From a virus, in IMG/VR virus record IMGVR_UViG_3300037189_001795, positions 1 through 20,465 of that record: a stretch of DNA of 20,465 nt, one strand, 5' to 3'. Shown one piece after another: positions 3,001-18,257 of the stretch; the first letter of the stretch is position 1, and every line of letters starts with the position of its first letter. The notes under the pieces are model-generated. The model was not told the DNA's origin and made no database searches. It worked only from the letters and a program-made list of their open reading frames with translations. The translations under genes were made by a program, and so were the position numbers.

Positions 3001-4991
3001 ATCCACTGAGGGTTCGTAAATGGAGAAACACTCAACCATTCTCCACCAGTTGTCCCAGAAGCAAATGCTCTCCACGCTTGATATATACCAGAATACTCAG
3101 TGGATGCGCTTGTGACTTGCGAAGATGTTGGACTCGAAGTTGTATTCGATGTCATTGCATTAAGAGGATATGTCGTCGCTGTGTTGGTCGACCCTACCGC
3201 CATTCGAGTGCTTGCAGTAGACCAGTAAAGGTTGATGTTGTCTTGCGCAATATTGGTGTTTGCGTCGATGAAAGGAATTGAGCCTGAAGTTAAAGAGGCA
3301 AATCGAGCCGTTCCGACAAGATGGAATGCCGTAGCAGGAGATGAAGTACCAATACCAAGGCGGTTATTTGCTTCATCATACGCCGAAGTTCCAAAGAAGA
3401 TTTTTCCTTTGGTCGCATTGCTTGTGGAAGACAAAGTCAAAGCGTTGCCTGAAGCAGTACCGCCGATGACACCTTGTCCTCCGGCCACACCAGTCGAAAG
3501 ATTGGCCGTGATCGTTCCGGCAGTGTTCGTTAGACCAGTCGAGAACGTATAAAGGCCGACATTGCTGATGTTGCCCTGGAGTTTTTGAAGGATTGTTTGA
3601 AGCGAATCCCCTGCCGTGATTGTTCCTGCTGAAGGCGTGAAGGATGCAATCTGAGCAAGGTAAGTCCTAGCATCGGTGAAATAAAGTTGTGTGCCTTCAG
3701 AGATGTTGGTGGTCGTAAGCGATACTGCCCCGGTCTGACCATTTACGGAAGACACACCCGTGACAAGTGCCCCGATGTTTCCATTCAATTTTTGAATTGC
3801 AGAAAGAATGCTATCTGTGGGGGAAATGGTACCCGCTCCTGAGACATAGCCAGTGAGAGTGGAACCAATAGTTCGAGCATTGGTGTAATATAATGGGCCA
3901 TTCTCAGGCACAACAGAAGTATCAAGAGTCTGAAATGTCTTGTCGCCCCTGAAGTATTGGGCTGTGGTCCCTGCTGTAATTGCAGGTTCTTTGGCATAGA
4001 AGATCGCAAAATCAGTAGAAGCAAGGTATCCATCTTGTGATCCGCTCGACTTCTTCACCTGAATCGCTGTGCCCGTACCAATCACGGCCCCGGCACCGTT
4101 AGTGATGGTCAGAACAGAAGATGTAGCCTCAGAAAGTGATCCGAAGCTGAGAGCGTTTTGTTTTGATTGAAAGGTAGAGAAGTCAGACGCTGAAAGGAAT
4201 CCGGCCTGAGATGCGCTTGATTGTTGAATGGTAAATTGACCAGTGCCTGAATCATACGCAAGCGGAGTCAAAGCAGAAACCGAACCCCTGGACCGGGCAT
4301 CGGTGTAATAGTAATTTGTGCCAGTTTCTGAAATATCGGCAGTTCCAAGAACAACCGCTCCGGTTTGTCCATTGACGGAAATAACAGACTCGTAGTTGGC
4401 AATCTTATCCCAAGCGGTACCGTTAAAAATAATCCAGTCACCAACTGCCCAATTTCCAATACCGTCAATGATGGTATTTCCGGCAACACTCACTTTGTAA
4501 TAATCGCCGTTTGTACCTACTCCGCTTGTAATGACCGGAGTGTTGGTGGAAGCATTCCAAAGACCAAGAAAAGTAAGGCCACCGACCACCCCAGGAGGGA
4601 TGTACGCCACTGGAATCAGATTGCTACCATCAAGAGGTGCATATCCGTTGGCAACACCCTTGTTTGCAATGTTTTCAGGAGTAAATCCGAGAGCATCCTG
4701 TTTTTGGGCAAATGTTGTAAAATCCAAGGCAGACAAATAACCATCGCTCTGAGCAGTAGCGATAGGGATTTGAATGTGACCGCCGACAATGACAAGCGGA
4801 GCATCGGCCTGTGTGACTCCTTGAGGATCAAACCATGTTGTATCGTAGTTCGCGTTTGATGCTTTTCCAAGAACCTGTCCGGCAAGACCTCCCGTTGGAA
4901 TACCAACACCCGGTACGCCCTGCACTCCTGTATCTTGAATGATGATGATTTCCGGATCGGAATTTAAAACAATGATTTGATTTTGGCTCAC
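1..4991 (-). CDS. Very long modular tail fibre (partial, open at left edge)
   Basis: Reading from GTG 4991, the frame has no stop to the left edge: about 1,663 codons. Modules in order: a Gly-rich lead with GQVLGKASNANYDTTWFDP (about 22-56); three 'GYLSA.DF.TF..KQ' copies (about 78, 260 and 317); a NGDYYKVSVAGN...GDWIIFNGTAWDKI module (about 139-193); three YYTDAR-type motifs (about 220, 362, 432) with two VNGQTGAV repeats; LGIGTSSP (about 542); an F5/8C (discoidin)-like domain (about 625-759); and a distal part with two related 85-90-residue modules (about 1134-1223 and 1377-1460). It is Thr/Ser/Asn/Gly-rich throughout, as expected for a trimeric fibre. Its C-terminus and any chaperone domain lie outside the window. 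Confidence 0.85.
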   Translation of the reverse strand, partial: MSQNQIIVLNSDPEIIIIQDTGVQGVPGVGIPTGGLAGQVLGKASNANYDTTWFDPQGVTQADAPLVIVGGHIQIPIATAQSDGYLSALDFTTFAQKQDALGFTPENIANKGVANGYAPLDGSNLIPVAYIPPGVVGGLTFLGLWNASTNTPVITSGVGTNGDYYKVSVAGNTIIDGIGNWAVGDWIIFNGTAWDKIANYESVISVNGQTGAVVLGTADISETGTNYYYTDARSRGSVSALTPLAYDSGTGQFTIQQSSASQAGFLSASDFSTFQSKQNALSFGSLSEATSSVLTITNGAGAVIGTGTAIQVKKSSGSQDGYLASTDFAIFYAKEPAITAGTTAQYFRGDKTFQTLDTSVVPENGPLYYTNARTIGSTLTGYVSGAGTISPTDSILSAIQKLNGNIGALVTGVSSVNGQTGAVSLTTTNISEGTQLYFTDARTYLAQIASFTPSAGTITAGDSLQTILQKLQGNISNVGLYTFSTGLTNTAGTITANLSTGVAGGQGVIGGTASGNALTLSSTSNATKGKIFFGTSAYDEANNRLGIGTSSPATAFHLVGTARFASLTSGSIPFIDANTNIAQDNINLYWSTASTRMAVGSTNTATTYPLNAMTSNTTSSPTSSQVTSASTEYSGIYQAWRAFASGTTGGEWLSVSPFTNPQWIQIDLTTSVTINSYNLIASSAAAANMAQAWTLLGSNTGAFSGEQTTIDTRTAQTAWGAGESRSYSLASPVSFRYYRVNVTAVNGSSFLAIGRIQLLNAAYATQTPLAKIHVTTSPTVDETALILQGAPTQTTPMLIVKNSSASNVLSIVQDGSILYGTQYSIGSAGGYTTLLSGSNGIAFRDRSSSSAGTSTIFWSLTNTSGITSYTPAAFTAASTLVAQSYSQTWNNASGVFTGSLINITNTASNASSRVFDFQVGGTTLHSMGTDGRVYFGNKSYFTSKLISLDDGVFMGCNYYGYAANSYYVSSSGAHMFTNGYMTTGGFYNASSAQGIVGGTIANSFAIKTVGRTDATVGTNARTFVGTAGGTTNFNGTTNTLTAVNGAFTSADVGLTVIVDGGYLTSSLISLGTITSVTNSTTVVVSNPYSVTGTTNYGTTVQIAIQYSPLTVSGQFTGHNTRSPSALLNIGSQGVVSASAWTSNGIAIRQDANTYTDTTSTGTTSTTFSNLTAINAIATPVIATSNATTYSNIATLYLSGAPTAGTNATLTNSYTLASSGKSVFEDSTAQNTYPLVLRNDNFAGAGGGVGILFFNRNSTNSGISAFIRSVIGSAGTQPQLILGTNGSDRLTVDYQGMTTIIGPGGVSSYGTVFRFGYGPNNLANWLFSAQNGSIAGNGLKLNITGNATNRDSMVWLLSGAVGIGNMAPTSLLHLGGNFSASAWGTTGVQLAHDAATFTDTSSTASSTVTNNMVNSFGVPTLAATNTAVTYTNASTVYIAGAPSAGTNVTLTSPYALYVNAGGVLFNGLLSALGGINTGTGGIVSGNGIFRVTSTRLTTTSTGNFLWSTGSDSNVGPFDLGFFRGAANTLYVSNGSTSNFSGNIAANQLGLGTSTLTAFLNLAGSSTTRASMNIATGTAPSSVNSGDVWHDSTQKTIYANEAGVNQSLSGTLFTQTADATCANTTTETTLTSTGVGTLTLPANFFVPGKTIKLQAYGFHSSTSGA
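610..865 (-). repeat. Distal fibre module, copy B
   Basis: Encodes SASAWGTTGVQLAHDAATFT, a Thr/Ser stretch, then TYTNASTVYIAGAPSAGTNV and TLTSPYAL, matching copy A (1321-1590) motif by motif. The divergence suggests an old duplication. Confidence 0.65.
1321..1590 (-). repeat. Distal fibre module, copy A
   Basis: Encodes SASAWTSNGIAIRQDANTYT, followed by a Thr/Ser stretch, then TYSNIATLYLSGAPTAGTNA and TLTNSYTL. The same order of motifs recurs in copy B at 610-865. Confidence 0.65.
2715..3110 (-). other. F5/8C (discoidin)-like carbohydrate-binding domain within the long fibre
   Basis: The translated region has A.RAF with a GEWLSVSPFTNPQWIQIDL core, then SYNLIASSAA, AQAWTLLGSN, FRYYRVNVTAVNGSSFLAIG and RIQLL. 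'W...A.F.....W.s.......WiqiDl', 'W.l.GS' and 'yrY.R.....ng....i.ri.l' is the galactose-binding-like F5/8C pattern. It is the clearest receptor-binding candidate in the fibre. Confidence 0.7.
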
Positions 4992-6774: not shown

Positions 6775-7704
6775 TCAGAATTTAATGATGTAATTAACAC
6801 CCAAGTTTGCAGGACGGGTTTCAGAGCCCCCTTGTCCTGCGATAATAGTTCCGGAATAGTAAGTAAAAATACTTCTAAAGTTAAAATTTTCACCATCGGC
6901 AGCCATGTCTCTAGGGTCTCCGTCACCAGTACCAGTTTGATATTGGTGCCGGTGATTACCGCCTCCATGGTCGTGATAACCAAACTGATCTGATTGGACA
7001 CCCCCAACCGTTGCAGAATATCCTCCGGTTGTCCCTGCGCCCCTTAAAAAATATCCTTGTGTGTTAGGGAGCAAAAAAGAACCACCCGATCCACCGTAAG
7101 TATATCCGATTGCATTATAGAGATTTGCGTAGGTCGTTGTCGAAAGTGATGATCCATCGCAATACAAAAATCCAGCCGGAGGAGTTACGCTTGCTCCTGC
7201 AAATGGCAGGATTGAACCTACCGGCATTGCAAGATCAAGCGCATCAAGTTGTGATTGAATGGTTGTTCCTGTTGCAATTTTGTGCCCCGTTGGATCGGCT
7301 TTTGAATACGCAGCATCTACCATGTATTGCCAATTTGCACCGATTGCAGGAGTCACATTTAAAGTATTATCGACAAGGCATTTATAAAATTGCCCGCCAT
7401 ATTTAACGACTGATCCAATGAAATATGTAGTGCTTGCATCATATTCAGGAATTCCTTCCTGCATGAGATACGCGAGTTGATAGAATGCCACATAATGAAG
7501 CGCGTTCATGTCCTCAATTGCCGGGGAATTGCCCCCGAGAACAGCACTGAACCACCCACCGTCCCAGTTCCCGAGTTGTTGCATTACCCAAGGATCGGTT
7601 GTAGTGGTCGGGCTCCCGGCTGCGAGTGATCCGAATTTACCGATCTCCCCGGCATTCGCCGCTGATCCGAATAATTTTTGATAAACTCTGCTTAGTTTCG
7701 CCAT
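6775..7704 (-). CDS. Tail fibre with phage collar domain
   Basis: A 309-residue receptor-binding-type fibre. Residues 1-75 form an N-terminal attachment region (KLFGSAANAGEIGKFGSL, then a Gly/Trp-rich part). Residues 88-129 are a CBM5/12-like module (YDASTTYFIGSVVKYGGQFY ... WQYM). Residues 160-222 are the tail collar domain (MPVGSILPFAG, PAGFLYCDGSSLS, LPNTQGYFLRG). A metal-binding-like HDHGGGNHRH lies at 244-253, and the end has the usual SETRPANLGVNYIIKF. The His cluster is typical of trimeric fibres that bind iron along the axis. A GAGGAGA site just upstream gives strong initiation. A fibre-assembly-like gene follows at once. Confidence 0.87.
   Translation of the reverse strand: MAKLSRVYQKLFGSAANAGEIGKFGSLAAGSPTTTTDPWVMQQLGNWDGGWFSAVLGGNSPAIEDMNALHYVAFYQLAYLMQEGIPEYDASTTYFIGSVVKYGGQFYKCLVDNTLNVTPAIGANWQYMVDAAYSKADPTGHKIATGTTIQSQLDALDLAMPVGSILPFAGASVTPPAGFLYCDGSSLSTTTYANLYNAIGYTYGGSGGSFLLPNTQGYFLRGAGTTGGYSATVGGVQSDQFGYHDHGGGNHRHQYQTGTGDGDPRDMAADGENFNFRSIFTYYSGTIIAGQGGSETRPANLGVNYIIKF
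7318..7443 (-). other. CBM5/12-like module in the collar fibre (residues 88-129)
   Basis: Shares D.A/P, TY, IG, VV, YGG, Y, N, P and W.Y with the C-terminal module of the preceding gene, which suggests duplication or shared acquisition of one binding module. Confidence 0.65.
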
Positions 7705-7713
7705 TTTATCTCC

Positions 7714-8478
7714 TCAAGGTACAACAATGGCATAAGTATAATTCAGCCATGTCCATGTTGTATTGTAATTTCCGTAGGTATTAAACCCGTTTACATTGTA
7801 ACCGCTAAAATATTTCCAGTAAGGACCATCTACAGGCACATTATCAAAATTTCCTGCGAGGATATTTTGATAGTATTCCCCACCGTATTGAACGACTTGA
7901 CCAATCGCGTAAGTAACGGCAGGGTCCCAGGCAGGGAATGCGGTCACTTGATAGCTAATCATGCCAAAAAACTGATTAACATACGGGGCATAAATCACTG
8001 ATCCGATTCCGACTCCCATCGGTTTCGGAAGAAGTCCCTGAATCAAGATCATCTCGGCAAGCTGTGCTGATCCGATTGCAGTGCTGAAAAAATATGACAT
8101 TTGCATATTCTTGAAATCAAATACTAAGAAGTCGCCCGGGAAGAATACCGAGATCAGTTTTTGAATGTCATATAAGGACGAACCGCCGTTATTTCGAATG
8201 ATCGCGAACTTGATTAACTGTCGGAAATCAGAGTCAGATAAAGAAATAGGACCGCTAAAATCAGTACCATATCGAGTGATTCCGACATATTTGCCGATGA
8301 CATCAAGCTGCACACCCTCGGCAGTGTTCAGATCATAGGCATTTTGAACCGCTACCGGGAGTTGGTTTACGACCGCCTCCTGAGTCAATGCCTCAATCGT
8401 CGCATAGGCGCGAGGCTTTCCTGCGTATTGTTTAATCAGAAGGTCGGCGTAATACTGGGCAATTTCAAGATCAGTCAT
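7714..8478 (-). CDS. DUF2612/gpI-like baseplate-to-fibre protein with C-terminal CBM5/12-like module
   Basis: A 254-residue protein. Residues 1-170 fit DUF2612/gpI-like proteins that link the J wedge to the tail fibres: LEIAQYYADLLIKQYAGKPR, NTAEGVQLDVIGKYVGITR, DSDFRQLIKFAIIRNNGG and the hydrophobic LAEMILIQGLLPKPMGVGI. Residues 183-223 carry a separate small module: WDPAVTYAIGQVVQYGGEYY and a VPVDGPYWKYF ending. This is the 'W...TY..G..V.Y.G..Y......N..P....W' pattern of CBM5/12 (chitin-binding-type) modules. The last 30 residues are Tyr/Trp/Asn-rich. It starts in a TAATG overlap with the J-like gene. Confidence 0.8.
   Translation of the reverse strand: MTDLEIAQYYADLLIKQYAGKPRAYATIEALTQEAVVNQLPVAVQNAYDLNTAEGVQLDVIGKYVGITRYGTDFSGPISLSDSDFRQLIKFAIIRNNGGSSLYDIQKLISVFFPGDFLVFDFKNMQMSYFFSTAIGSAQLAEMILIQGLLPKPMGVGIGSVIYAPYVNQFFGMISYQVTAFPAWDPAVTYAIGQVVQYGGEYYQNILAGNFDNVPVDGPYWKYFSGYNVNGFNTYGNYNTTWTWLNYTYAIVVP
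7810..7932 (-). other. CBM5/12-like module in the DUF2612 protein (residues 183-223)
   Basis: Contains W, TY, IG, VV, YGG, Y, P and W at the spacings typical of CBM5/12-type carbohydrate-binding modules. A near copy lies in the next gene at 7318-7443. Confidence 0.65.
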
Positions 8479-9875
8479 TATAGCACCGTGATTGTTGATT
8501 CTCCGTAGTTTCCAAGGTCATCGGTTGCCCTTACTACCGCAACAGTCGGAGAACTCGGAGCTGTATACAATCCTGATCCGTTAACTGAACCCCCACCCGA
8601 ATGGACGGACCAAGTGTAAGTCTGATGCCCTCCGACTGCTGTGAGTTGTTGCGTATCGTTCACATTGATCGTTTTAGTGACCGGAGTTACATAGATTGGC
8701 AACAGAATGATATTTGCTGATGTTATCGCAAATTGATTGTTGAGAGCCGTCGGGGAGAGCGTATTTGTATACGACCCACTGACAGAAAGCGAAAATCCTG
8801 CATTCGTAACAAGAGTATTCGGATCAAGCTCCTGCACCAAAGTGGCAAGCTCGTTGATGTTTACTTGAGTTCCGACCCCAGGAGTAAGGCTAGTAGGAAG
8901 GCCAGAAATAATCCTCGAATAAAAAGGCGCATTTACACCATCCAGAGACGACACATTGAACTTGATAAAAAGATTCTGAGGAGTGACGACATCCCAAGAC
9001 ACGACAAAAGGAGACCCGTCAATCTGTGTAACGGTATAGGATACTGATCCTTTCATACCGCATCCGGCGTTTCTCTTCAGATAGATTGCGTTTGCTACAT
9101 CGGCAGCGGAGACGGCCCCACCTACGATTACCCAAATCGAGTGCGAGGGAATACCATTTGCGTCTGTGGTCGGAGTATTGTTCTCGTAAACATAGGCCGC
9201 AGTGATGCCGTTGATGTTTTCCAAGGCTCCGATAAGACCTTGAAGGTATCCTTGAGAAGGAAGAGCGACGGACTTTTGACGCCGAATCTTCAATGCAGCA
9301 TCGGTCTCTTCATTCAAGCCCAGGCTCGTGTAAGTCGTCGGATTATTGATTAAGGAAACCCCGAGGACGACCGTAATCGGTACGGTAATGGTATTCGGTA
9401 CGGTAAGAACGGCCCCGACATCCTTTGCGCTAAATGGATAGGCATAAACTCCGGCAGTGCTAGGGTATTGAGTCGTTTGAAGCTGGAACTGATTTCCTGC
9501 GTTATCCGCGACCGTAAAAGGAGAATCAGGATACAGATCAAGTCCCTTGAGTGTACAGGCTTGGCTAGTGGTAATCGTGACATTCGTTACGGTCTTAGTT
9601 CCTGCAAGTCGCTGAATTCCGTTATACGCTACGCGCTGATCGAGCGTTACCCCGAATGCCTTATCCGGATCAAAGTTATTATTGACCTGGGTAATCAGGT
9701 CCAAGTTATCTAGGATCGCTTGAATGAAAATCCCGATCATCTGCCCGTCTGGGGTATCGGAGTCAATGTTGATGTCGTTCCCGTAAATGCTTTGAAAAGC
9801 CGCTTTGAAATCGGCGTAAAGGTCTTGATAAGTTTTTGTCGTCAGCCCCGTGGCTGTGATTGCATTTGTTGCCAT
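8478..9875 (-). CDS. Baseplate wedge J-like protein with a C-terminal Ig-like domain
   Basis: A 465-residue protein. The N-terminus (MATNAITATGLTTKTYQDLY, then IYGNDINIDSDTPDGQMIG) is the standard opening of baseplate J/gp6-like proteins. Residues about 185-215 have LNEETDAALKIRRQKSVALP, another J-like signature, followed by GYLQGLIGALENINGI and a domain up to about 390. Residues about 395-465 form an Ig-like domain (YTWSVHSGGGSVNGSGLYTA, VRATDDLGNYGES) that is extra compared with P2 gpJ. J proteins join wedges into the baseplate ring. The ATG has GAGGA 6 nt upstream. The stop overlaps the next start by one base. Confidence 0.86.
   Translation of the reverse strand: MATNAITATGLTTKTYQDLYADFKAAFQSIYGNDINIDSDTPDGQMIGIFIQAILDNLDLITQVNNNFDPDKAFGVTLDQRVAYNGIQRLAGTKTVTNVTITTSQACTLKGLDLYPDSPFTVADNAGNQFQLQTTQYPSTAGVYAYPFSAKDVGAVLTVPNTITVPITVVLGVSLINNPTTYTSLGLNEETDAALKIRRQKSVALPSQGYLQGLIGALENINGITAAYVYENNTPTTDANGIPSHSIWVIVGGAVSAADVANAIYLKRNAGCGMKGSVSYTVTQIDGSPFVVSWDVVTPQNLFIKFNVSSLDGVNAPFYSRIISGLPTSLTPGVGTQVNINELATLVQELDPNTLVTNAGFSLSVSGSYTNTLSPTALNNQFAITSANIILLPIYVTPVTKTINVNDTQQLTAVGGHQTYTWSVHSGGGSVNGSGLYTAPSSPTVAVVRATDDLGNYGESTITVL
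8481..8693 (-). other. Ig-like domain, copy 2 (J-like protein residues about 395-465)
   Basis: Shares TWS, GGS, SGLYTA, RA.D..G and T.TV with the N-terminal domain of the neck protein (17653-17874), in the same order and with only small gaps. Here it is attached at the C-terminus. Confidence 0.72.
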
Positions 9876-10229
9876 TTAAATCCTCACCACTGTTGAATAG
9901 CTTACTCGCTCAGTGTAGACGGTATTGATCGAATACTGAAGGGTGATTTTACGATTCGAGTCGATTGAAAATGACGAATCCACAATGCCCGTGACTCCGA
10001 CCGTGTTCAAAATCACAGAATTAATATCGAGCTGAATCTGAAGTTTGTTCTTGCTCCCGAGCCGATTAAACCAGTCGATCCCTGCCGTAATATCAAAAAA
10101 GCAATCTCCGAGGAAAGACTGAAGTCTGGTCTTTACATTTTGGGCAATCGCGTCATTTGCGCTTAGGTAATCGTTTCGACCTTTCCCGAACAGCCAATCA
10201 TTTTCTATGTCAATTTTGCGTACAATCAT
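9876..10229 (-). CDS. Baseplate wedge protein (gp25/gpW-like)
   Basis: A 117-residue protein with the gp25-like arrangement: N-terminal DIENDWLFGKGRNDYLSAND, then VKTRLQSFLGDCFFDITAGIDWF in the middle, and a C-terminal strand region ending YSINTVYTERVSYSTVVRI. It is a small wedge component that helps start sheath assembly at the baseplate. It lies directly before the J-like wedge gene, as in P2, Mu and related phages. It starts in an ATGA overlap with the spike gene and its TAA stop abuts the next start. Confidence 0.8.
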   Translation of the reverse strand: MIVRKIDIENDWLFGKGRNDYLSANDAIAQNVKTRLQSFLGDCFFDITAGIDWFNRLGSKNKLQIQLDINSVILNTVGVTGIVDSSFSIDSNRKITLQYSINTVYTERVSYSTVVRI

Positions 10230-10921
10230 TCGAGTAAGGCTCCCAGATTGGATGATAAACTAGAAATCGCTGCTGATAAAGCTTGCGCTGCAGGTCCGAG
10301 CGTAGGTTCAACAGTCGCTAAGCTCGTGGCTGTTGCGAATGAGTTTAGGGCGTCAGAAAGCCCAACAAGTAAGTCCTTTAGGTTTTGTACATCATTTTTG
10401 ATGGCAATTTTTTCGGAGCTAAGCATCACCTTGGCTTTATCGTTAGCGATCACGACTCGATCCGGATCATAGTTTGAAATCGCATTCTTTGAATGCCTAA
10501 TCCCAACAAGGGCCATCGCGTCCGCGATGTTATGGGTTCTCGCCGTTGTAGGCTCCTGGTTTACCTGCCCAGACGCCCACCATGCGTCAATATCCCTATC
10601 ATTGAACATGAGTATGCAAGTGTCGCCCTGCTTGATCGGCATGGTGATATGCCCCGTCCCACCCGTAAGCGTTACAACAGGGCAGGATATCGCCATTGGG
10701 TAATCCTTTAAGATCGGATAGTAGTTCGAAGTTTCCGAATCCCTTGTGAAGTAAACCTGCTTGTAATTAAAAGTTACATCTGCGGTTTGAGTGTCAGGAT
10801 AAAAGTTCTGAATCGTTCCAAGAGCGTGACAATTTAATTCCAGAAAAATAGTTCTTTTTAATTCTAATAAATTGTCAATTAAATCAGGGGTATGGCGAAT
10901 TATTGGATTTAAATTAATCAT
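10226..10921 (-). CDS. Baseplate spike / central puncturing protein (Gp138 N-terminal-like OB fold)
   Basis: A 231-residue protein. After a helical lead, residues about 32-150 form an OB-type domain: LGTIQNFYPDTQTADVTFNY, then CPVVTLTGGTGHITMPIKQ, DTCILMFNDRDIDAWW and NIADAMALVGIRH. This matches the Gp138 N-terminal/gpV-gp45 spike pattern. Residues about 155-185 give short beta strands (RVVIANDKAKVMLSSEKIAI) that could begin a small spike helix. The C-terminus (about 190-231) is Ala/Ser/Leu-rich and helical, so no long needle or enzymatic domain is present. It overlaps hub and gp25-like genes by ATGA, and its own ribosome site is weak (AAAG). Confidence 0.8.
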   Translation of the reverse strand: MINLNPIIRHTPDLIDNLLELKRTIFLELNCHALGTIQNFYPDTQTADVTFNYKQVYFTRDSETSNYYPILKDYPMAISCPVVTLTGGTGHITMPIKQGDTCILMFNDRDIDAWWASGQVNQEPTTARTHNIADAMALVGIRHSKNAISNYDPDRVVIANDKAKVMLSSEKIAIKNDVQNLKDLLVGLSDALNSFATATSLATVEPTLGPAAQALSAAISSLSSNLGALLE

Positions 10922-11856
10922 AAATCTTTATAAATCCCAGCGTACATTGTTAGAGTAGTCACAGCCGGAGCATTAACCGTTGGGCTGATTATTCCTCTAT
11001 GCGTGATGTCATAAATCTTATAGTAAGAGTTCATCGCGTAATAGTACCGTTTTGGATTAACGGATGCCGCTAAGATTTGTTGCGACCCTGTGGTGCTTCT
11101 TAAAAAGACCCTTTGCCCGACTAGAAATCGAGGCTCAAAAACTAAATCAACACTTACGCGATCTGAATTGATTACAGGAGTCCCCAGAAGGCCAGTAGCA
11201 GAATTGATCTCATTCACGATCGGGGGAATTGTCTCGCCTTCTCCGATCACATTCACAATATTATTATCAATGAAGCATCCGTTATTACCTAAAAACTGCC
11301 TAAGAACATCCCCCGTGTTTCCGTTTAGTTGAATCTGCCTTTGCAATGGTTGAGTATTGGCAAAAATGCTTTCTGATATTTTTCCGATCTGAACGACATT
11401 CTTTTGACCCCCTGCATTTACAAGGTCATTTAAAAGGGATGTAACGATCTGTTTGTAAGTAGTCCCGATCCCGAATGTATGGTTTGACTCGGCTACGGCC
11501 CAGGCGAATCCCCCGTCATATCCTGTGATCTGAGTCACAAAATTAGTTCCTTCACGGACGGAGAAAGCGTTTCCTACATATCCGGCAAAGATCAAGGACA
11601 TCTGATCGCCCTCGTATCCTGCTCTGAGAAACATTTTCCTGCGCTTTAAAGGATCGGAATAATCTACTCGGATCAAGTTTCGGGTTTCTTCGTTCAGATT
11701 ATAGACCTTGATCGTAGCGTCTTGTTTCGATGTTTTATAAACTCTTACGATATTAAACTCGATGCTAAAAGGCAGTTTGATGACCTTGTATTCTTCGACA
11801 TCTGGCCCGGTATCAAGCTGGATTTTTAGCTCATAAATTCGATTACGCTTCTCCAC
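10918..11856 (-). CDS. Baseplate hub protein (gp27/gp44/gpD-like)
   Basis: A 312-residue protein placed between plug and spike genes. Residues 1-110 form beta strands with ATIKVYNLNEETRNLI and RRKMFLRAGYEGDQMSLIFAGYVG, the standard opening of tail-hub proteins of the T4 gp27/Mu gp44/P2 gpD type. The middle contains TYKQIVTSLLNDLV and NTGDVLRQFLGNNGCFIDNN, and the C-terminal third has DRVSVDLVFEPRFLVGQRVFL and YYKIYDITHRG. A trimer of it normally caps the tube and holds the spike. The start is GTG at 11856 with AAGG 6 nt upstream (11863-11866). It ends in ATGA overlap with the spike gene. Confidence 0.83.
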   Translation of the reverse strand: MEKRNRIYELKIQLDTGPDVEEYKVIKLPFSIEFNIVRVYKTSKQDATIKVYNLNEETRNLIRVDYSDPLKRRKMFLRAGYEGDQMSLIFAGYVGNAFSVREGTNFVTQITGYDGGFAWAVAESNHTFGIGTTYKQIVTSLLNDLVNAGGQKNVVQIGKISESIFANTQPLQRQIQLNGNTGDVLRQFLGNNGCFIDNNIVNVIGEGETIPPIVNEINSATGLLGTPVINSDRVSVDLVFEPRFLVGQRVFLRSTTGSQQILAASVNPKRYYYAMNSYYKIYDITHRGIISPTVNAPAVTTLTMYAGIYKDL

Positions 11857-12190
11857 GAGTCACCTTCAAATAATACTGGGCTTCAGTGTTATCGAGGAAA
11901 TACATCGTGCAAAAACCCGATACAAAATCCTGCTGATTTTGAGGCTCCTGATTGTTCGTGGTCGTGACGCAAAGACCAAATGGAAGCTGATTGATAAATT
12001 GATGCAGCAGATTCGGGCTAACGCAAATTCTGATTCCTTGAAGGGTAAAAGTCCCGTATTGAAGACTTGTGATGAACCATCCAAGCTGCATTGGCTTGAA
12101 TTCCATCTCAATCGTGACGATGCTTCCATCATAGAGAACGAATCTCTGTTTCTGTCTTGCGTCTGCCGTGATCTGTTGAATTTGATACAT
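11843..12190 (-). CDS. Baseplate plug-like protein (Pam3 gp18 type)
   Basis: A 115-residue beta-rich protein with RFVLYDGSIVTIEMEFKPMQ followed by LGWFITSLQYGTFTLQGIRI and LPFGLCVTT. This 'f.l.dg...l...y.....gWy.....g..i..gi....LPfGL' layout matches the small baseplate plug proteins known from cyanophage Pam3 gp18 and relatives, which lie between Dit-like and hub genes, as here. It starts one base inside the preceding stop (TAATG) and ends 14 bp inside the hub gene. The assignment rests on pattern and gene order. Confidence 0.68.
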   Translation of the reverse strand: MYQIQQITADARQKQRFVLYDGSIVTIEMEFKPMQLGWFITSLQYGTFTLQGIRICVSPNLLHQFINQLPFGLCVTTTNNQEPQNQQDFVSGFCTMYFLDNTEAQYYLKVTRGEA

Positions 12191-13047
12191 TATGCCACCA
12201 TCCCTGAAATGACCGATGATTGACTAACGGAAGAAGCTGGAGGAGTAGAAATCCCGAGATCTGCTCCCGTTGAAGCTCCGGCTGATAGTCTCCCCGTGGT
12301 GTTAGCTGCATTGATCACAGTGACCGCGTATTGGGTTGATGCAAATTGCATCTTTTTAAAGGTGATTTCAATGTCCGTGATCATCCGGCTATCTTGATTC
12401 TGAATGAATCTCAAAGACTTGATCGCCATGTTGGTCTGTTTGTTCCAAGGAGTCTGCACAGTCATCAGGGTTCGATTCACATAATACCCATAGAGTTTAT
12501 TGAATGCCTGTTGCTGTTTGTTCTGGATATTAACCTGACCCGATGCCCAGTCGAATGTTTTAACGGATTGATACGCATTTTGAAGATTCGCTAATACTTG
12601 AAACGCTTGCGCTGCTTGATTATATGCTAGCAGCGCGTAGGCTGATACTTCTGGGGTATAAGCAGAAAGCGCGTAGAATCTTGATAAAACCTGTGATTGA
12701 GCAATCTGTAGAGTCTTATTCGGAGCAATGTCATTTAATTCTCCGATAAATCCCTGAACACTTACTTCAAGCGGTTTCTGCGCGATATGATCCTGAATCG
12801 CGTAGTTAGCTTCAACATAATGATCCGTGATATCGGATTCGATACTGATAGAGTTTTCTGCCTCATAATGAAATAGAAAAGCATCATCGGAAAATGGAGG
12901 GATCGGAGTGCCAGGCACGGCGAAGTTTTGCTGCGGCTCGTATCGGTTGTTTTGATTGCTTGGAGTAATTAAAACAACATTACCGAGGGCGTTTGCTCCT
13001 GCCGTAATGTTCCCTAACGCTGGGAGATTTGTTGATTGGTATGCCAT
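12190..13047 (-). CDS. Baseplate/distal tail protein with Dit-like N-terminal domain
   Basis: A 285-residue protein. Residues about 60-110 contain SISIESDITDHYVEANYAIQ and the KPLEVSVQGFIGEL run, the mark of the Dit-like N-terminal domain found in myovirus baseplates: protein that connects the tube end to the hub and binds as a ring. A helical middle region (about 120-200), a beta segment (MITDIEITFKKMQFA) and a Ser/Ala/Thr-rich tail follow. The ATG at 13047 overlaps the tape measure stop by one base (TAATG) and is preceded by GAGGGG, so initiation should be strong. The place between tape measure and plug/hub genes agrees with the role. Confidence 0.8.
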   Translation of the reverse strand: MAYQSTNLPALGNITAGANALGNVVLITPSNQNNRYEPQQNFAVPGTPIPPFSDDAFLFHYEAENSISIESDITDHYVEANYAIQDHIAQKPLEVSVQGFIGELNDIAPNKTLQIAQSQVLSRFYALSAYTPEVSAYALLAYNQAAQAFQVLANLQNAYQSVKTFDWASGQVNIQNKQQQAFNKLYGYYVNRTLMTVQTPWNKQTNMAIKSLRFIQNQDSRMITDIEITFKKMQFASTQYAVTVINAANTTGRLSAGASTGADLGISTPPASSVSQSSVISGMVA

Positions 13048-14204
13048 TATTTACCCCTCAAGCTTTGCAGCGCACTTTGTGTTGACCTATGAACTTCCGA
13101 CCCGTGAGCGCGTGATGTTTCTTTCGGATCATTTGATCCGTAGATATTCGTATTGTTTGTTTGATTGATTACATTACCAGCCCCACCTGCCGTAGCTGGA
13201 ACAAGGTTACCCATCATGAGTTCTTTAAACCCTGGGAAATCCCCAGAGAAAAGACCTCTTGTAAATTTATTGGCAAAGATGTCTTTTGTTTTTTCGTTTT
13301 GAAATACATTTTCTTTTCCTTCTTTGTATTTCTCGAATTCACTAAGAAGAAAAACCAATCCCGTAACAACAGCAGAAAGAGGATTGAGATAGGCAGCCAT
13401 GCCTGCGAGAGCAAGCCCGAATGCTTTTAGAAAATCTAGTAAAGGTCCACCCTGTCCGCTTTTGAAAGACCTGATGATATTCAGAATGCCTTTCATTGCG
13501 TTTTCAATCATTTTTAAAGCTGGCAAAACGACTTCAGCGGCAAAGTCTGCTCCAACTCCCTTAGTAAAAGAATCTTTTAAGTTTTCGAACTCTACACCGA
13601 TTTGTCTAAGCTGCTTCTGCCTTGCTGGAGAGATAATCTGCCCAAAAAGCTTATCCATGTTTTTATTATTTTCTCTTAAAAACGGGATAAACGCATCGCC
13701 ACCTATAAAACTTCTTATTGCTTCGTTTGCATATTCGACATCGCCTGGGTATTTTTTTGTAAATTCTTCTATTTTTTTCATGGCATAGAAAATGCCATTT
13801 TTTCCTTTCGCTTTATTTACATCAAAATCAACAACGGTTTGGAGCCTTTTCAATCCTTCTGGGGGATTGCCTTGCGACATTTGAGCAAGAACTTTTTTTA
13901 AATTAGTAAATGCCGCTGTTGTATCTTCAGCAGAAACTCCTGATTGCCTGGCTGCATTGATCCAGGATTGTAACTGCTCGCTTGAGTCTCCGGTAAGAAG
14001 GGAAAAGTTTACAAGGCTTTTCCCCATTTGAGCTTCAGCGGAACTGATCTGCTCAAGGGCATAAAGAAGAGCCAAAAACTCAAGGCGAAGAGAATTAACA
14101 AAACCGCCTGTTTTTTGGAGATTAGAGCCGACAGAGGTCAAACCTTTGACGGCTACATCCGCGCCTTTTAGGCCGATTTCAACGAGTAACTCACCGATTT
14201 TCAC
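13047..14204 (-). CDS. Tail tape measure protein
   Basis: A 385-residue, mainly alpha-helical protein. Residues 1-60 start MKIGELLVEIGLKGADVAVK, followed by long helices. Residues about 62-180 contain LLTGDSSEQLQSWINAARQ, SAEDTTAAFTNLKKVLAQM and FIPFLREN, typical of tape-measure N-terminal regions. A hydrophobic stretch at about 255-290 may be the membrane-active part. The C-terminus is polar with VINQTNNTNIYGS. It is short for the class, which predicts a short tail (about 58 nm if roughly 0.15 nm per residue applies). The start is GTG at 14204 with GAGG 6 nt upstream, and it overlaps the chaperone frame by 14 bp. Confidence 0.85.
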   Translation of the reverse strand: MKIGELLVEIGLKGADVAVKGLTSVGSNLQKTGGFVNSLRLEFLALLYALEQISSAEAQMGKSLVNFSLLTGDSSEQLQSWINAARQSGVSAEDTTAAFTNLKKVLAQMSQGNPPEGLKRLQTVVDFDVNKAKGKNGIFYAMKKIEEFTKKYPGDVEYANEAIRSFIGGDAFIPFLRENNKNMDKLFGQIISPARQKQLRQIGVEFENLKDSFTKGVGADFAAEVVLPALKMIENAMKGILNIIRSFKSGQGGPLLDFLKAFGLALAGMAAYLNPLSAVVTGLVFLLSEFEKYKEGKENVFQNEKTKDIFANKFTRGLFSGDFPGFKELMMGNLVPATAGGAGNVINQTNNTNIYGSNDPKETSRAHGSEVHRSTQSALQSLRGK

Positions 14205-14463
14205 GATTCACCTCGTAAAATGCGGATTCGTATTTATTTACAAAAGTCTCGTAATGCAGTGCTTGAATTACTTCTCTCGCAGTCATTTCCATAACCTCCC
14301 TTAGTGTGCCATATCCGGCCTTCACTAAGCGAAAGAAAATAATCAGGTCATCGTCCTCGGCCCTTATGCGAGGCTTTGTTTTACTTTCTCCAGTACTGGA
14401 GAGAACTTCGCATAAAGGCTTTTCGTAAAAGGCAGGATGTTTTCTTTCGCAATCAAATAGCAA
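14191..14463 (-). CDS. Tail assembly chaperone, second frame (T-like part, probably reached by -1 frameshift)
   Basis: This frame is open after a TGA at 14469-14467 and ends at TGA 14193-14191, overlapping the tape measure by 14 bp. It has no ATG in a useful place; the earliest near-cognate codon is a TTG at 14463 with no ribosome site. Relative to the upstream chaperone it is in the -1 frame. The part after the upstream stop is acidic then helical (AEDDDLIIFFRLVKAGYGTL, REVIQALHYETFVNKYESAF), like the T part of G/GT pairs that contacts the tape measure. If the slip occurs at codon 122, the fusion would have about 184 residues. It is best read as the extension of the upstream protein, not a separate gene. 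Confidence 0.68.
   Translation of the reverse strand: MLFDCERKHPAFYEKPLCEVLSSTGESKTKPRIRAEDDDLIIFFRLVKAGYGTLREVMEMTAREVIQALHYETFVNKYESAFYEVNRENR
14211..14214 (-). promoter_or_regulatory. Ribosome site fixing the GTG start of the tape measure gene
   Basis: GAGG lies 6 nt before GTG at 14204-14202, within the end of the chaperone second frame. No ATG start competes nearby. Confidence 0.7.
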
Positions 14464-14744
14464 ACTTCAAAATAATCGGCCCGAGCCTCGACTGCTTCGA
14501 AGGTATTCTCATCGATCCTGCTACCGTTATAGGTAGCTCGACGAGCGCACACCATTAGAGCTGATTCGACCTTCTTAGAGCCTAAGAAGGTACAGACTAA
14601 ATCTTTTAAAAGATTTGCATCGATGTCTGTATTGGAATCCACTTTCAAGGCTTTTGCCTCCTCCATGATCGCTTGGAGGAGGGCACGAGCTTCCGCAAAA
14701 GAGGCCGGGCTGATTTTTAATTCTGCTCCGCTCTCAAGAATCAT
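14364..14744 (-). CDS. Tail assembly chaperone, short form (G-like)
   Basis: A 126-residue, helical protein lying between tube and tape measure, the fixed place of tail assembly chaperones (lambda G/GT, P2 E/E+E'). It begins MILESGAELKISPASFAEAR and contains DLVCTFLGSKKVESALMVCARRATYNG and YFEVCYLIAKENILPF. The last 100 nt overlap an open -1 frame (14191-14463) that carries the likely second part. These chaperones coat the tape measure while the tube polymerises and leave the finished particle. The gene starts at an ATGA overlap with the tube gene. A 10-bp perfect hairpin (14569-14591) lies inside it. Assigned mainly by position, size and the overlapping frame. Confidence 0.75.
   Translation of the reverse strand: MILESGAELKISPASFAEARALLQAIMEEAKALKVDSNTDIDANLLKDLVCTFLGSKKVESALMVCARRATYNGSRIDENTFEAVEARADYFEVCYLIAKENILPFTKSLYAKFSPVLEKVKQSLA
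14376..14382 (-). other. Candidate -1 ribosomal slip site (A AAA CAA)
   Basis: Within the overlap, in the zero frame GTA AAA CAA, the P-site AAA codon can re-pair perfectly one base back; the A-site CAA cannot. It therefore allows slippage but is not a canonical X XXY YYZ site. A GGAG (14388-14391) lies 5 nt upstream and overlaps a palindrome, CTCCAGTACTGGAG (14388-14401). A second weak candidate is T TTT ACG near 14424-14430. I found no classical heptamer in the open overlap. Confidence 0.4.
14569..14591 (-). repeat. Perfect 10-bp inverted repeat in the chaperone gene
   Basis: ACCTTCTTAG and CTAAGAAGGT flank a 3-nt loop, inside codons for TFLGSKKV. No T tract follows on either strand, so it is not a standard terminator. 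It could be a regulatory RNA structure within the chaperone mRNA, or chance. Confidence 0.5.
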
Positions 14745-15196
14745 GTGATTGCTCTTGGAGCGTTAGAAAACTTGATGGTGTAAACAGATACGGACTGATC
14801 TGTGTCACCTTCGACATTTACCTTTGCTTCTACTTGCTTAGTAAATACGCCACCAGAAAGGATATAAATGTCACTGCTAAGCGTTCCATCACCTTTACCG
14901 ATCTTTTTTACAAGTTCGCCGATCATGAGGACGAAGCCCGCAAAGTTTGCTTGCTGATTCACGAGAAGTCCGTTCATGAATTTGTCATCCGCTGATCCAC
15001 GAATCAATCGGAGTACAAGCTCGGATTGCTTTCCGGATTCATTGAGACCGTAGATCGAGTTTCCGTTCTTCCCGGTCTTCACTTGCGCGATTTCGTTAGG
15101 GAAGGTCAATACCGCAATGTCCCCGTCCGCGAGATCGGCGAGGATTCGGTTATTGATAGTGATCGTATCTGCTCCTGAGAGTGCTACAGTAGCCAT
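14741..15196 (-). CDS. Tail tube protein (DUF3277-like)
   Basis: A 151-residue, beta-rich protein. It begins MATVALSGADTITINNRILADLADGD and contains GKNGNSIYGLNESGKQSELVLRL, FAGFVLMIGELVKKIG and the C-terminal YTIKFSNAPRAIT. This is the pattern and size of DUF3277 tube proteins, the usual partner of DUF3383 sheaths. The tube forms the rigid channel inside the sheath. A strong ATAGGAGA ribosome site lies just upstream of the ATG, inside the 11-bp gap after the endonuclease gene, so the tube has its own efficient initiation despite the insertion. Its stop overlaps the chaperone start in an ATGA. Confidence 0.87.
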   Translation of the reverse strand: MATVALSGADTITINNRILADLADGDIAVLTFPNEIAQVKTGKNGNSIYGLNESGKQSELVLRLIRGSADDKFMNGLLVNQQANFAGFVLMIGELVKKIGKGDGTLSSDIYILSGGVFTKQVEAKVNVEGDTDQSVSVYTIKFSNAPRAIT

Positions 15197-15207
15197 TTTC
15201 TTTTCTC

Positions 15208-15714
15208 CTATGCGTTTAAATTTAAATATTTCATTGCATTTTTAAAAACAATTTTGTTCTCTTTTAACATTGAAATCCCAACATTGCATTCGTTGCACAG
15301 TAAGCCTCTTACAGCTCCAGTTGTATGACAATGATCCACCTTTAAAGTATAGTTCAAATCGCTTTCGTGTTTCCCACATATTTTACAGCAATGCCATTGC
15401 TCAATTAACATTCTATTGTATTCGCTTAATGTTATCCCGTATTTTTTTTTGTAATTAAAACTTCGAATTCTTTCATCATTAAGTCTTTTTTTACATTCTA
15501 TTGAACAGCTTTTAGGGTTTCCTTTTGTGTTTGAAGCATAGAATTTTTTACCGCAAGATTTGCAGTTCAATTCTTTTTTTATTCTTGGATTTTCTTTTCT
15601 ATCCAATTTTGACCATTCTGTCCTATAAATACGGGTACATTTATCAGAACAAATTTTCTGATTATGTACCCGTTTTTTAAATTCAGAATTGCATATTACA
15701 CAAATCATAATCAC
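15208..15714 (-). CDS. Free-standing HNH homing-type endonuclease (endonuclease VII-like)
   Basis: A basic 168-residue protein. Residues about 5-26 and 50-74 each contain a CxxC...CxxxC zinc-ribbon-like motif (CVICNSEF, CSDKC; CKSCGKKF, CSIEC). Residues about 109-145 form the nuclease: CCKICGKH, then VDHCHTTGAVRGLLCNECN, the signature of the recombination endonuclease VII/HNH family. The His residues of the DHCH motif are present, so it looks active. The gene sits between intact sheath and tube genes and is clearly A/T-richer than they are (one 60-base line, 15421-15480, has 15 G/C; a sheath line, 16441-16500, has 28). No Shine-Dalgarno sequence precedes either the GTG at 15714 or the ATG at 15708. 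These traits fit a selfish mobile endonuclease. Confidence 0.88.
   Translation of the reverse strand: MIMICVICNSEFKKRVHNQKICSDKCTRIYRTEWSKLDRKENPRIKKELNCKSCGKKFYASNTKGNPKSCSIECKKRLNDERIRSFNYKKKYGITLSEYNRMLIEQWHCCKICGKHESDLNYTLKVDHCHTTGAVRGLLCNECNVGISMLKENKIVFKNAMKYLNLNA
15631..15678 (+). terminator. Long inverted repeat in the 5' end of the HNH gene; reads as an intrinsic terminator on the plus strand
   Basis: Outer arms ACGGGTACAT (15631-15640) and ATGTACCCGT (15664-15673) pair perfectly. Inner arms ATCAGAA (15643-15649) and TTCTGAT (15656-15662) continue the stem around a 6-nt loop, with a small 2/1-nt asymmetry between the two parts. On the plus strand the stem is followed at once by six T (15673-15678), as in a rho-independent terminator facing against the genes. 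In the sense mRNA it is a 17-bp hairpin starting about 40 nt after the start codon. It could block antisense transcription or limit translation of the endonuclease. The structure is directly visible; the role is inferred. Confidence 0.6.
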
Positions 15715-17156
15715 GCATTTACAGAGACAATTACATTTGAGCTATGGATCGCGCCTGCTGCCTTGATTGCGATCTGAACCAGAGGAGCTTGACGGGCTGC
15801 TCTATTTACTGGGTTCTGTTGTGCTACTGGTGCGCTGTAGATGTAGTATCCACGCTGGGCCACATTGGCGATCAAGTCGGCCTGATTTCCAAAGAAAGTG
15901 GTCGAAGTCCATGTTCCGGGAGCAGAGTATTGATTGGTTACGGCTTGCTCGCAGACTTGACGGTATGCGCCTTTAAGGATGCTCATTCCGTTTTCGGTTT
16001 GTGGCACCTTAGTTCCTACTTGAGCAAGTGCATTGAATCCTGCCACTTGAAGGGCACCGACGAGCCATTGAAGATTGTAGACATCATCAAAAAAGCTGTT
16101 TGCACCAGAGCAGAACACTTTAGCCACGCCTTGAATTGAGATGTAAACATCCGCTCCGGCAAGCTCGCACTTGTTGAGCAGGGTTTGAGTCATGCTCGGA
16201 TCAGGCTGAATGGTGGCCAAGTCCTTCAAATGCATGGTGATGGTTGTGTTTGAACCAGCAAAATCTACTGACAGGCCGCGAGAAGCGTATGCAGCCATCA
16301 TTTCGAGGGCAGAAGTCACGGCTTGTGCTGCGCTGATTCCTGCGGTCACAACCTTCTGAGAAATAACTACTGATTGAGAAGCAGAGTTAGTCAAAGAGTT
16401 AGCGGTTACGGTCACAGGTAGAGCCGCTCCATCTACACCGACGAATGAGAAGGTAAACCCATTCGCGTAATCCCCGACGATTACAATATCGGCCAATCCT
16501 GGGAATGACCTAAAGATGGTTTGAAGTCCAGAAGCGGTGATCGTATACGCTACTGATCCAGTGCTATGGGTTCCGTATTCAAGGGTATAAAATCCTGCGG
16601 CTGGAACCGAAGAAAAGGTCAGGGATTGCAATTCGGTCACTGCTTGAGAGCAGTAGAACAATCCGCGTGATTGGGTATATCCACCAGTGCGGAGTTGATC
16701 GAGCAAACCACCAGCTTCCACAGAGGCTGAGTCATTGGATACGAAAAAAGCGACTTTGTTCAAAGTCTGGATCAATGCTGCGGCCTCGAGCATATCCGCA
16801 TCTGATTCGATTGCCGCAGTCATTACTCCGAAATACTGGATCACATCTTTGGTTGAGAGAATGGTATCTGCCAAAGTCCCATCGAGCTGAATCACAACAA
16901 GGTAACCGCCACCTGCGAGGATGTTCGGCTTTTGAGAGAATACCGCTACAGCCATTTTGTAGGTGTTAGAAGAAGTCCCGAAATCGGTCGCAACATCATC
17001 AGGGGAAAGATAGAGTTTGTATCCGCTTACGCCGAATGAAAGAGCCGGAGTTTCGTTTGTGAAAAGCGCAAGATTAGAAGTGTTATAAGCTCCAAGACCT
17101 GCACCGGGCTGAAGCACGCTGATATTGATTACATTTGAAATACTGATTTGACTCAT
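15711..17156 (-). CDS. Tail sheath protein (DUF3383-like)
   Basis: A 481-residue contractile sheath subunit, the usual length for DUF3383 sheaths. The C-terminal third carries the conserved-looking run FCSGANSFFDDVYNLQWLVG, then VPQTENGMSILKGAYRQVCEQAV, GYYIYSAP, and a final NRAARQAPLVQIAIKAAGAIH segment. These regions normally form the inner domain that packs on the tube. The start is supported by a GGGAGA ribosome site. The frame is intact, so the endonuclease gene that follows has not split it. Its TGA stop overlaps the GTG candidate start of that endonuclease gene. Confidence 0.9.
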   Translation of the reverse strand: MSQISISNVINISVLQPGAGLGAYNTSNLALFTNETPALSFGVSGYKLYLSPDDVATDFGTSSNTYKMAVAVFSQKPNILAGGGYLVVIQLDGTLADTILSTKDVIQYFGVMTAAIESDADMLEAAALIQTLNKVAFFVSNDSASVEAGGLLDQLRTGGYTQSRGLFYCSQAVTELQSLTFSSVPAAGFYTLEYGTHSTGSVAYTITASGLQTIFRSFPGLADIVIVGDYANGFTFSFVGVDGAALPVTVTANSLTNSASQSVVISQKVVTAGISAAQAVTSALEMMAAYASRGLSVDFAGSNTTITMHLKDLATIQPDPSMTQTLLNKCELAGADVYISIQGVAKVFCSGANSFFDDVYNLQWLVGALQVAGFNALAQVGTKVPQTENGMSILKGAYRQVCEQAVTNQYSAPGTWTSTTFFGNQADLIANVAQRGYYIYSAPVAQQNPVNRAARQAPLVQIAIKAAGAIHSSNVIVSVNA

Positions 17157-17166
17157 AGTTTCTCCC

Positions 17167-17874
17167 TCAATTTGTCACGATTTCCGCGCTCTGGAAGGCA
17201 TCAAAATAACCCGTCCCAGTCGTCTTCGTTACCTGATATTGTACGACCACATTGATATTAAATCTATATGGTATTGCTGTCCCATCAAGATTTGAAAGAT
17301 TGGTAAATCCCGTTGATACCTTGCCAATTTGGAACGAATTAAGTTCTTGTTGTTGCTCTGCGTAATTAGAGCTTAAAGCCAAAAGGACCTGTTCTTTTAA
17401 GTCCCTGGCATCCGGCCCACGGCTCATGCAATCAATTGAGAGCGTAGCCTTCATGTTTACAGACTGAACTTGAGTATTTGTTGAATTATCAAAGTAATTG
17501 GTGACCCCGAAAGATTTGCTATCAGCAACTTCGACCACAACAAAAAGGCCCTCATCAGTAGGCATAATGATCTTTTGATCCCACAGGAAAACTCTTCCTT
17601 GATCCAAGCTCATTTCCTTTTGAATTATATCGCAGACTAGGTGGGGAATTGTCCCCACATTGATTGTGGTCAATGCTATTAAACCGGAGGCATCAATCGC
17701 CCTAATTTGGTCAATTCCGAGCTTCGTTCCGGCTGTATATAGTCCAGACGAGTCAATCGAGCCTCCGGTGTTGTTTTTAGAAATACTCCAAGTGATAGGA
17801 TTAGTGCCACTTGTAACGGCAAGTGGCTGCTTTGAATTAAATCCCATGTAAGAAGAGTTCGAGATGATTTTCAT
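17167..17874 (-). CDS. Neck/tail terminator-like protein with an N-terminal Ig-like domain
   Basis: A 235-residue two-part protein. Residues 1-74 form a bacterial Ig-like (Big_2-type) domain marked by ITWSIS, GGSIDSSGLYTAG and IRAIDASGL. Residues about 75-235 begin IPHLVCDIIQKEMSLDQGRV and contain LSIDCMSRGPDARDLKEQV and YRFNINVVVQYQV. That arrangement fits the phage neck terminator (gp12-like/LIC_12616-type) proteins that cap the tail tube just before the sheath gene. The Ig part is an addition to the usual fold and closely matches the C-terminus of the J-like baseplate protein in this window. The gene starts at an ATGA overlap and ends 10 bp before the sheath start. Confidence 0.68.
   Translation of the reverse strand: MKIISNSSYMGFNSKQPLAVTSGTNPITWSISKNNTGGSIDSSGLYTAGTKLGIDQIRAIDASGLIALTTINVGTIPHLVCDIIQKEMSLDQGRVFLWDQKIIMPTDEGLFVVVEVADSKSFGVTNYFDNSTNTQVQSVNMKATLSIDCMSRGPDARDLKEQVLLALSSNYAEQQQELNSFQIGKVSTGFTNLSNLDGTAIPYRFNINVVVQYQVTKTTGTGYFDAFQSAEIVTN
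17653..17874 (-). other. Ig-like domain, copy 1 (neck protein residues 1-74)
   Basis: This region encodes a domain with TWS, GGS, SGLYTA, RA.D..G and T.INV. All of these recur in the same order in the J-like baseplate protein (coding positions 8481-8693). Ig-like domains on phage virions usually sit on surface-exposed proteins and are thought to bind carbohydrates weakly. Here the domain is fused to the N-terminus. Confidence 0.7.
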
Positions 17875-18257
17875 TTTCTAAAATCCTCGACACATTCAAA
17901 AGAGTTATACCCGTAGGCTGACCAGTCATTCTTATACATGACTCGGAAAGGAATTCCCTGATAGATAAAAATATCATCCGGATTCAAGGTAAGATCAGGA
18001 GTGGCCCAGACGCTCATTTTCTTCCACTTGCGCTGTCCGGTCGGGCTGATATCGAGATTCTGTGGACTTTGGAACTCGACGATGCCTTGAAATTGGATAT
18101 TCGTTCTGGTTTCTACGACTTCAAAATTGATAGTTTCTTTTTTAATAACCGTAAAAGTAAGGTTCTGAAACCAGTCCGAAATGGTGGCTTCCATTGTCGG
18201 AAGCGTAGGAGTGATTTGATCGAGCGATCTACTGTTTGCATTAGTGATGAATTTCAT
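17871..18257 (-). CDS. Small head-closure / stopper-like protein
   Basis: A 128-residue protein that I do not recognise by name. It looks beta-rich in its second half, with KKMSVWATPDLTLNPDDIFIYQG followed by a RVMYKNDWSAYGYNSFEC segment. A 'D.i...G..yrv....dws.yGy' ending is common in small neck proteins that sit between the gp10-like and the neck-terminator genes in myovirus modules. It starts at an ATGA overlap with the gp10-like gene and ends in an ATGA overlap with the next gene. Its size, fold-like pattern and place point to a head-closure or stopper ring, but this is inference from synteny. Confidence 0.55.
   Translation of the reverse strand: MKFITNANSRSLDQITPTLPTMEATISDWFQNLTFTVIKKETINFEVVETRTNIQFQGIVEFQSPQNLDISPTGQRKWKKMSVWATPDLTLNPDDIFIYQGIPFRVMYKNDWSAYGYNSFECVEDFRK

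Follow-up and report, generated by a model that had tools for sequence, protein, structure and literature searches.

Background

Immunoglobulin-like (Ig-like) domains are well known and common on the surfaces of phages, including on baseplate proteins. Five classes of virion protein have been listed as carriers: tail fibres, baseplate proteins, the tail tube, the major capsid protein and Hoc (PMC9022992, after Fraser et al.). Tail terminators fall outside this list. Several structures describe what surrounds a terminator ring. The helices of the terminator point outward (PMC11042391, PMC12886913), the terminator of Staphylococcus phage 812 has an outer beta-sandwich that binds the sheath (PMC12886913), and the Ig-like domain of the Vibrio phage XM1 collar spike, gp40, binds gp4 and the terminator gp5 and strengthens the joint (PMC10457771). 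In the T5 terminator, the N-terminus contributes to the contacts between subunits, and the protein was monomeric when a His tag was attached there (PMC11784142). At the other end of the XM1 tail, each of six wedges holds two copies of the wedge protein, whose third domains connect adjacent wedges (PMC10457771).

The sequence analysed here, called the window, is the whole of a 20.5 kb viral contig fragment (IMG/VR record IMGVR_UViG_3300037189_001795). On its minus strand it encodes the structural proteins of a phage with a contractile tail, in capsid-side genes, neck genes and genes for the sheath, tube, tape measure, baseplate and fibres. Its closest named relative is Bdellovibrio phage phi1422 (JQ177062), a dwarf myovirus of the phiPLPE group, whose genome paper mentions neither Ig domains nor the proteins gp54 and gp65 (PMC3391216).

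Results

The neck protein of the window (17167-17874, minus strand, 235 amino acids) is a tail terminator. Residues 75-235 (17167-17652, minus strand) match PF23961 (Pfam E 3.6e-7), passing its curated cut-off over residues 95-218 with 30.4 bits against 27, and the predicted fold is that of lambda gpU and E217 gp29; the best structural match of the core model is XM1 gp5 (Z 15.2), and E217 gp29 reaches Z 12.2. The position of the gene fits this assignment. On one side is a head-completion or collar-like gene (17871-18257, minus strand; PHROG 939 head protein, E 2.2e-12, with a weak match to PF22755, the E217 collar gp28, E 0.056), and on the other is the tail sheath gene (DUF3383; 15711-17156, minus strand; Pfam E 9.4e-35, PHROG tail sheath E 7.9e-60), whose product is the contact neighbour of the terminator. 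By analogy with its homologues, the protein would form a hexameric ring atop the tail. A coiled-coil protein that was the best PDB sequence match of the terminator profile was judged spurious, and E217 gene 00030 was rejected as the E217 terminator because it does not belong to PF23961. A genome scan with our first terminator alignment gave no matches. Between the tube and sheath genes lies a small gene (15208-15714, minus strand) that has cysteine clusters and, by eye, the look of an HNH endonuclease; it may be a homing insertion, since one related contig (L003) has no open reading frame between its tube and sheath genes.

The first 74 residues of the neck protein (17653-17874, minus strand) form an Ig-like domain that is absent from the solved terminators compared here. 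The terminators of XM1, E217, Pa193, lambda and T5 match the neck model only from residue 73-75 on, and their chains align from their own residues 2 to 7 at the point where the neck protein reaches residue 74, which identifies the Ig-like domain as an N-terminal addition. In the terminators of ZF40, phiPLPE and JD001, which lack the domain, PF23961 begins at residue 5 or 6, and domain-less terminators in related environmental contigs likewise begin a few residues at most from the core. Homologous neck proteins without the domain thus align from residue 74 and not from residue 1. Within the clade, the domain is conserved at this position in every neck relative whose 5' end is intact, and in the AlphaFold2 model it connects directly to the first terminator helix. 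An apparently long N-terminus on one other terminator (L141) proved to be an artefact of an upstream reading frame.

The second carrier is a J-like protein (8478-9875, minus strand, 465 amino acids), which is a baseplate wedge protein of the T4 gp6 type. Its core, residues 1-394 (8694-9875, minus strand), matches PF04865 (E 1e-10) and PHROG 6 baseplate wedge (E 1.2e-38), and its fold matches the XM1 wedge chain 7kh1_A5 over residues 2-395 (Z 17.3) and the Pa193 wedge (Z 17.1). Here the Ig-like domain is C-terminal, at residues 395-465 (8481-8693, minus strand). The XM1 wedge protein, 404 residues long, aligns to J residues 2-395, that is, without the Ig domain, and several relatives of the J-like protein end exactly at the boundary between core and Ig domain. 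Each host protein is therefore also found without the domain. In one related contig (L092:5526-5843, plus strand), the J core is in one frame and its Ig domain in another that overlaps it, a split that may represent a sequencing error, a broken gene, or a programmed frameshift that gives some of the J proteins an Ig domain.

The two Ig-like domains are homologous. They share motifs in the same order, ITWSI..GGSIDSSGLYTAG..IRAIDASG..TINV in the neck protein and YTWSV..GGSVNGSGLYTAP..VRATDDLG..TITV in the J-like protein; these motifs and the coordinates of both domains are as an earlier note on this DNA had given them. A two-sequence BLASTP comparison found 38% identity over 61 residues (E 6e-7). 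Scored without composition adjustment, the pair reaches 40.8 bits, and none of 20,000 shuffles reached this score (maximum 28.1 bits). In an ordinary composition-adjusted search among the 26 window proteins, however, the pair appears only at E 0.33, so the two sequences by themselves are a borderline case that such a search could miss, and position profiles decide the matter. A neck-domain profile built from relatives, with the window and its nearest relative excluded, finds the J domain of the window at E 1.5e-15, and in the reverse direction a J-domain profile recovers the neck domain with E 8e-15 (profile matches of the two domains are annotated at E 3.9e-18 for the neck and 6.3e-20 for J). 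Every one of the remaining proteins among the 26 scored above E 0.3 with these profiles, and across 132 loci no other match appeared save one frameshift-split J protein.

Predicted structures agree with the profiles. AlphaFold2 models of both proteins, made from 21-sequence alignments, have block pLDDT values of 90-96 in both domains, and the two were compared through a common template, the C-terminal Ig domain of the T5 tail tube protein pb6 (residues 378-462). The neck domain fits it at Z 11.7 (rmsd 1.4 A, 74 residues) and the J domain at Z 11.1 (rmsd 1.6 A, 73 residues). This is the best phage match of both domains; intimin, the phi29 capsid Ig domain and a Big_2-CBM56 structure come next, and the J domain matches the Big_2 domain of 7r3t at Z 11.8. 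Structural matches at Z 9-12 and 1.4-2.1 A extend over the whole domain, which identifies the fold as Ig-like. Neither window domain matched Pfam Big_2, for which the best score in the clade was 15 bits, from the J protein of L006, against a cut-off of 22.8. Searched in isolation, the Ig domains gave no NCBIfam match and no Pfam match above the cut-offs.

The weakness of the pair in the composition-adjusted search (E 0.33) might suggest a chance resemblance between glycine- and threonine-rich ends of low complexity. That explanation has a negligible probability and we regard it as refuted: independent profiles match at E ~1e-15, both domains have the same fold, and both are conserved in phi1422. 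The phi1422 proteins gp54 and gp65, which are 34 and 42% identical to the window proteins over their whole length, carry the same Ig-like domain at the same protein end, in a region whose synteny with the window is kept. The annotation of gp54 is hypothetical protein. The proposal of the earlier note that one family of Ig-like domain is carried by two unrelated virion proteins was thus borne out.

The two domains differ in their distribution. Scans of IMG/VR yielded about 100 contigs, and domains were counted in those with both genes intact. Both domains were present in 20 contigs, neither was present in 12, and the neck domain alone was found in seven, two of which have a near-identical partner, so that the independent count is lower than seven; no contig had the J domain alone. 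The J domain was therefore found only in phages that also have the neck domain. Another genome scan added a Bdellovibrio metagenome-assembled contig (L143) that has both domains, is of the same type as an IMG/VR contig and provides one further named host link; a Bacteroidetes metagenome-assembled contig carries the neck domain only.

When these states are mapped on a tree of J cores, the neck domain requires one change and therefore looks like a single gain, retained since; this fits a history of one gain, with no loss seen in the clade. The J domain requires at least six changes, three of which are forced by well-supported branches, and a single gain followed by several losses would account for them, as would repeated gains.

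A tree of 79 Ig domains from about 50 related contigs is divided by a single branch (SH-aLRT 95) into a part with all the neck domains and a part with all the J domains; the tree is unrooted and has no outgroup Ig domains because an Ig-only alignment was too variable for scans of both collections. The similarity of neck to J domains within contigs (0.350) did not differ significantly from that between contigs (0.339, p 0.054). There has been no recent exchange or copying between the neck and J genes, and the idea that the domain had moved between these genes in the window phage, as the earlier note implied, found no support. An older event is a different matter. One domain may have been copied from the other within the genome of the clade ancestor, since the neck and J sets are mutual closest matches among the loci compared and J domains occur only where a neck domain is present. 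The branch support and the absence of excess similarity within contigs leave no trace of recent copying, and the unrooted tree is equally compatible with an old duplication and with two captures from a common pool, so that we hold a within-genome duplication to be plausible at somewhat less than even odds.

Strong purifying selection acts on both Ig domains. In a comparison of the window with its closest relative, the neck Ig domain has a dN/dS of 0.10 and the terminator core one of 0.094; the values for the J-like protein are 0.058 in its Ig domain and 0.050 in its core. Across 19 contigs, the identity of the neck Ig domain (0.41) comes close to that of the terminator core (0.46), whereas the J Ig domain (0.46) is clearly less conserved than the J core (0.56). 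Neither dN/dS nor identity over the 19 contigs revealed, in either domain, the diversifying selection or fast change expected in a receptor arms race.

The window phage and its relatives have other repeated or surface modules. A second small beta domain is inserted in the window sheath (15711-17156, minus strand) at about residues 177-266. Sheaths of relatives have it once or twice, and it is also found within the J proteins of numerous relatives and in the gene that follows J; among the carriers are the J and DUF2612-type proteins of L025, L042, L083 and other contigs. A profile of the J insert finds the window sheath at E 5.6e-9. When matches near 310 amino acids, which are not sheaths, are excluded, the sheath insert is present in 26 of 39 contigs with a neck Ig domain and in none of 12 without one; in sheaths it occurs only in contigs with the neck Ig domain. 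Mutual dependence of the insert and the Ig domains found no support, because 13 neck-Ig contigs lack the insert. Two tail proteins also share a third module, which resembles CBM5/12 and lies in a collar-domain fibre (6775-7704, minus strand, residues 86-128) and in a DUF2612 baseplate protein (7714-8478, minus strand, residues 182-224); the two copies are 37% identical over 43 residues (E 1e-6), with Pfam matches of E 2e-5 and 1e-4 that are below the cut-off. A giant tail fibre (3-4991, minus strand), cut by the contig end, includes an F5/8 type C (galactose-binding-like) domain at residues 628-748. Salmonella phage SE13, a Rosemountvirus related to the window phage by sheath and J, has two Big_2 domains on a separate, free-standing virion protein, encoded two genes upstream of its sheath (L014:317-952).

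Discussion

The likely arrangement of the domains on the virion can be drawn from E217, Pa193, XM1 and 812. If the terminator forms a six-fold ring, six neck Ig domains would sit around the outside of the joint between head and tail, and if there are two J-like proteins per wedge, as in relatives, twelve J Ig domains would stand at the baseplate rim. The point in the earlier note that a neck terminator is normally partly buried, which would make such a domain unusual there, is a weak one, given the outward helices, the outer beta-sandwich of 812 and the XM1 spike domain that docks on the terminator. The T5 N-terminus, with its place in subunit contacts, nonetheless suggests that an N-terminal domain could sit nearer the subunit interface than assumed here.

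We favour the reading that the neck and J domains are two ancient, separately inherited Ig-like add-ons at the two ends of the contractile tail, with different roles. The neck domain would be a fixed structural part, bracing the terminator where it meets the collar or the first ring of the sheath, and with it the head-tail-sheath junction, in the manner of the 812 beta-sandwich and the Ig-like foot of the XM1 spike; this role agrees best with its constancy and slow change. The optional J domain would fit the role of an accessory surface module at the rim, with a weak or no essential function. We put the probability of this reading, history and roles taken jointly, at about 0.5. One observation speaks against the bracing analogy: the beta-sandwich of 812 is no N-terminal addition, as its chain aligns to window terminator residues 75-235.

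Adhesion, the role that the earlier note proposed, is possible for both domains. They could be accessory adhesins that weakly hold the virion to the host surface or matrix, a role proposed for the Ig-like domains of tail tubes and Hoc (PMC9022992); the fold is common to domains of intimin, FdeC and LigA, and tail proteins of this phage also bear modules that resemble CBM5/12 and F5/8C. However, Ig-like folds are also common structural modules, both domains are under purifying selection with no excess of change, and no loss of the neck domain was seen in the clade, whereas an adhesin at the periphery would be expected to be gained and lost over time. A clamp would have a low dN/dS, but so would an adhesin whose ligand is conserved. 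On balance, we consider it rather unlikely that both domains are adhesins.

A bolder picture, which we hold to be improbable, goes further. Terminator and wedge cap the sheath at its two ends, and their Ig domains might be structural bookends of the contractile sheath, the neck domain gained first and the baseplate domain second; terminators might also constitute a further functional class of Ig carrier beyond the five. The terminator Ig domain, for which no loss was seen in an environmental clade that includes the isolated phage phi1422, is a clean case for testing function: it is fixed, low in copy number and at a structurally known site, and the same virion may carry an optional counterpart on a second protein.

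A literature search of partial coverage, and hence weak evidence of absence, found no earlier report of an Ig-like domain fused to a tail terminator. The closest systems each share part of the arrangement. The C-terminal Ig domain of T5 pb6 (5ngj), of the Big_2 type according to PMC9022992, has the same fold (1.4-1.6 A over 73-74 residues), but it is on the tail tube of a siphophage, whereas those of the window are on the terminator and the wedge. The nearest precedent is the 812 terminator gp99, with an added, sheath-binding beta-sandwich termed unique (PMC12886913); that sandwich is inside the stretch that aligns with the core (chain 5-275 against model 75-235), while the window Ig domain is N-terminal to it. 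Phage P1 PmgC is a neck protein with a domain called Ig-like (PMC12810830), but it is an adaptor and not a terminator. In XM1, the Ig-like N-terminal domain of gp40 is docked on the outside of the terminator and head-completion rings (PMC10457771); there the domain belongs to a separate protein, and in the window phage it is fused to the terminator itself.
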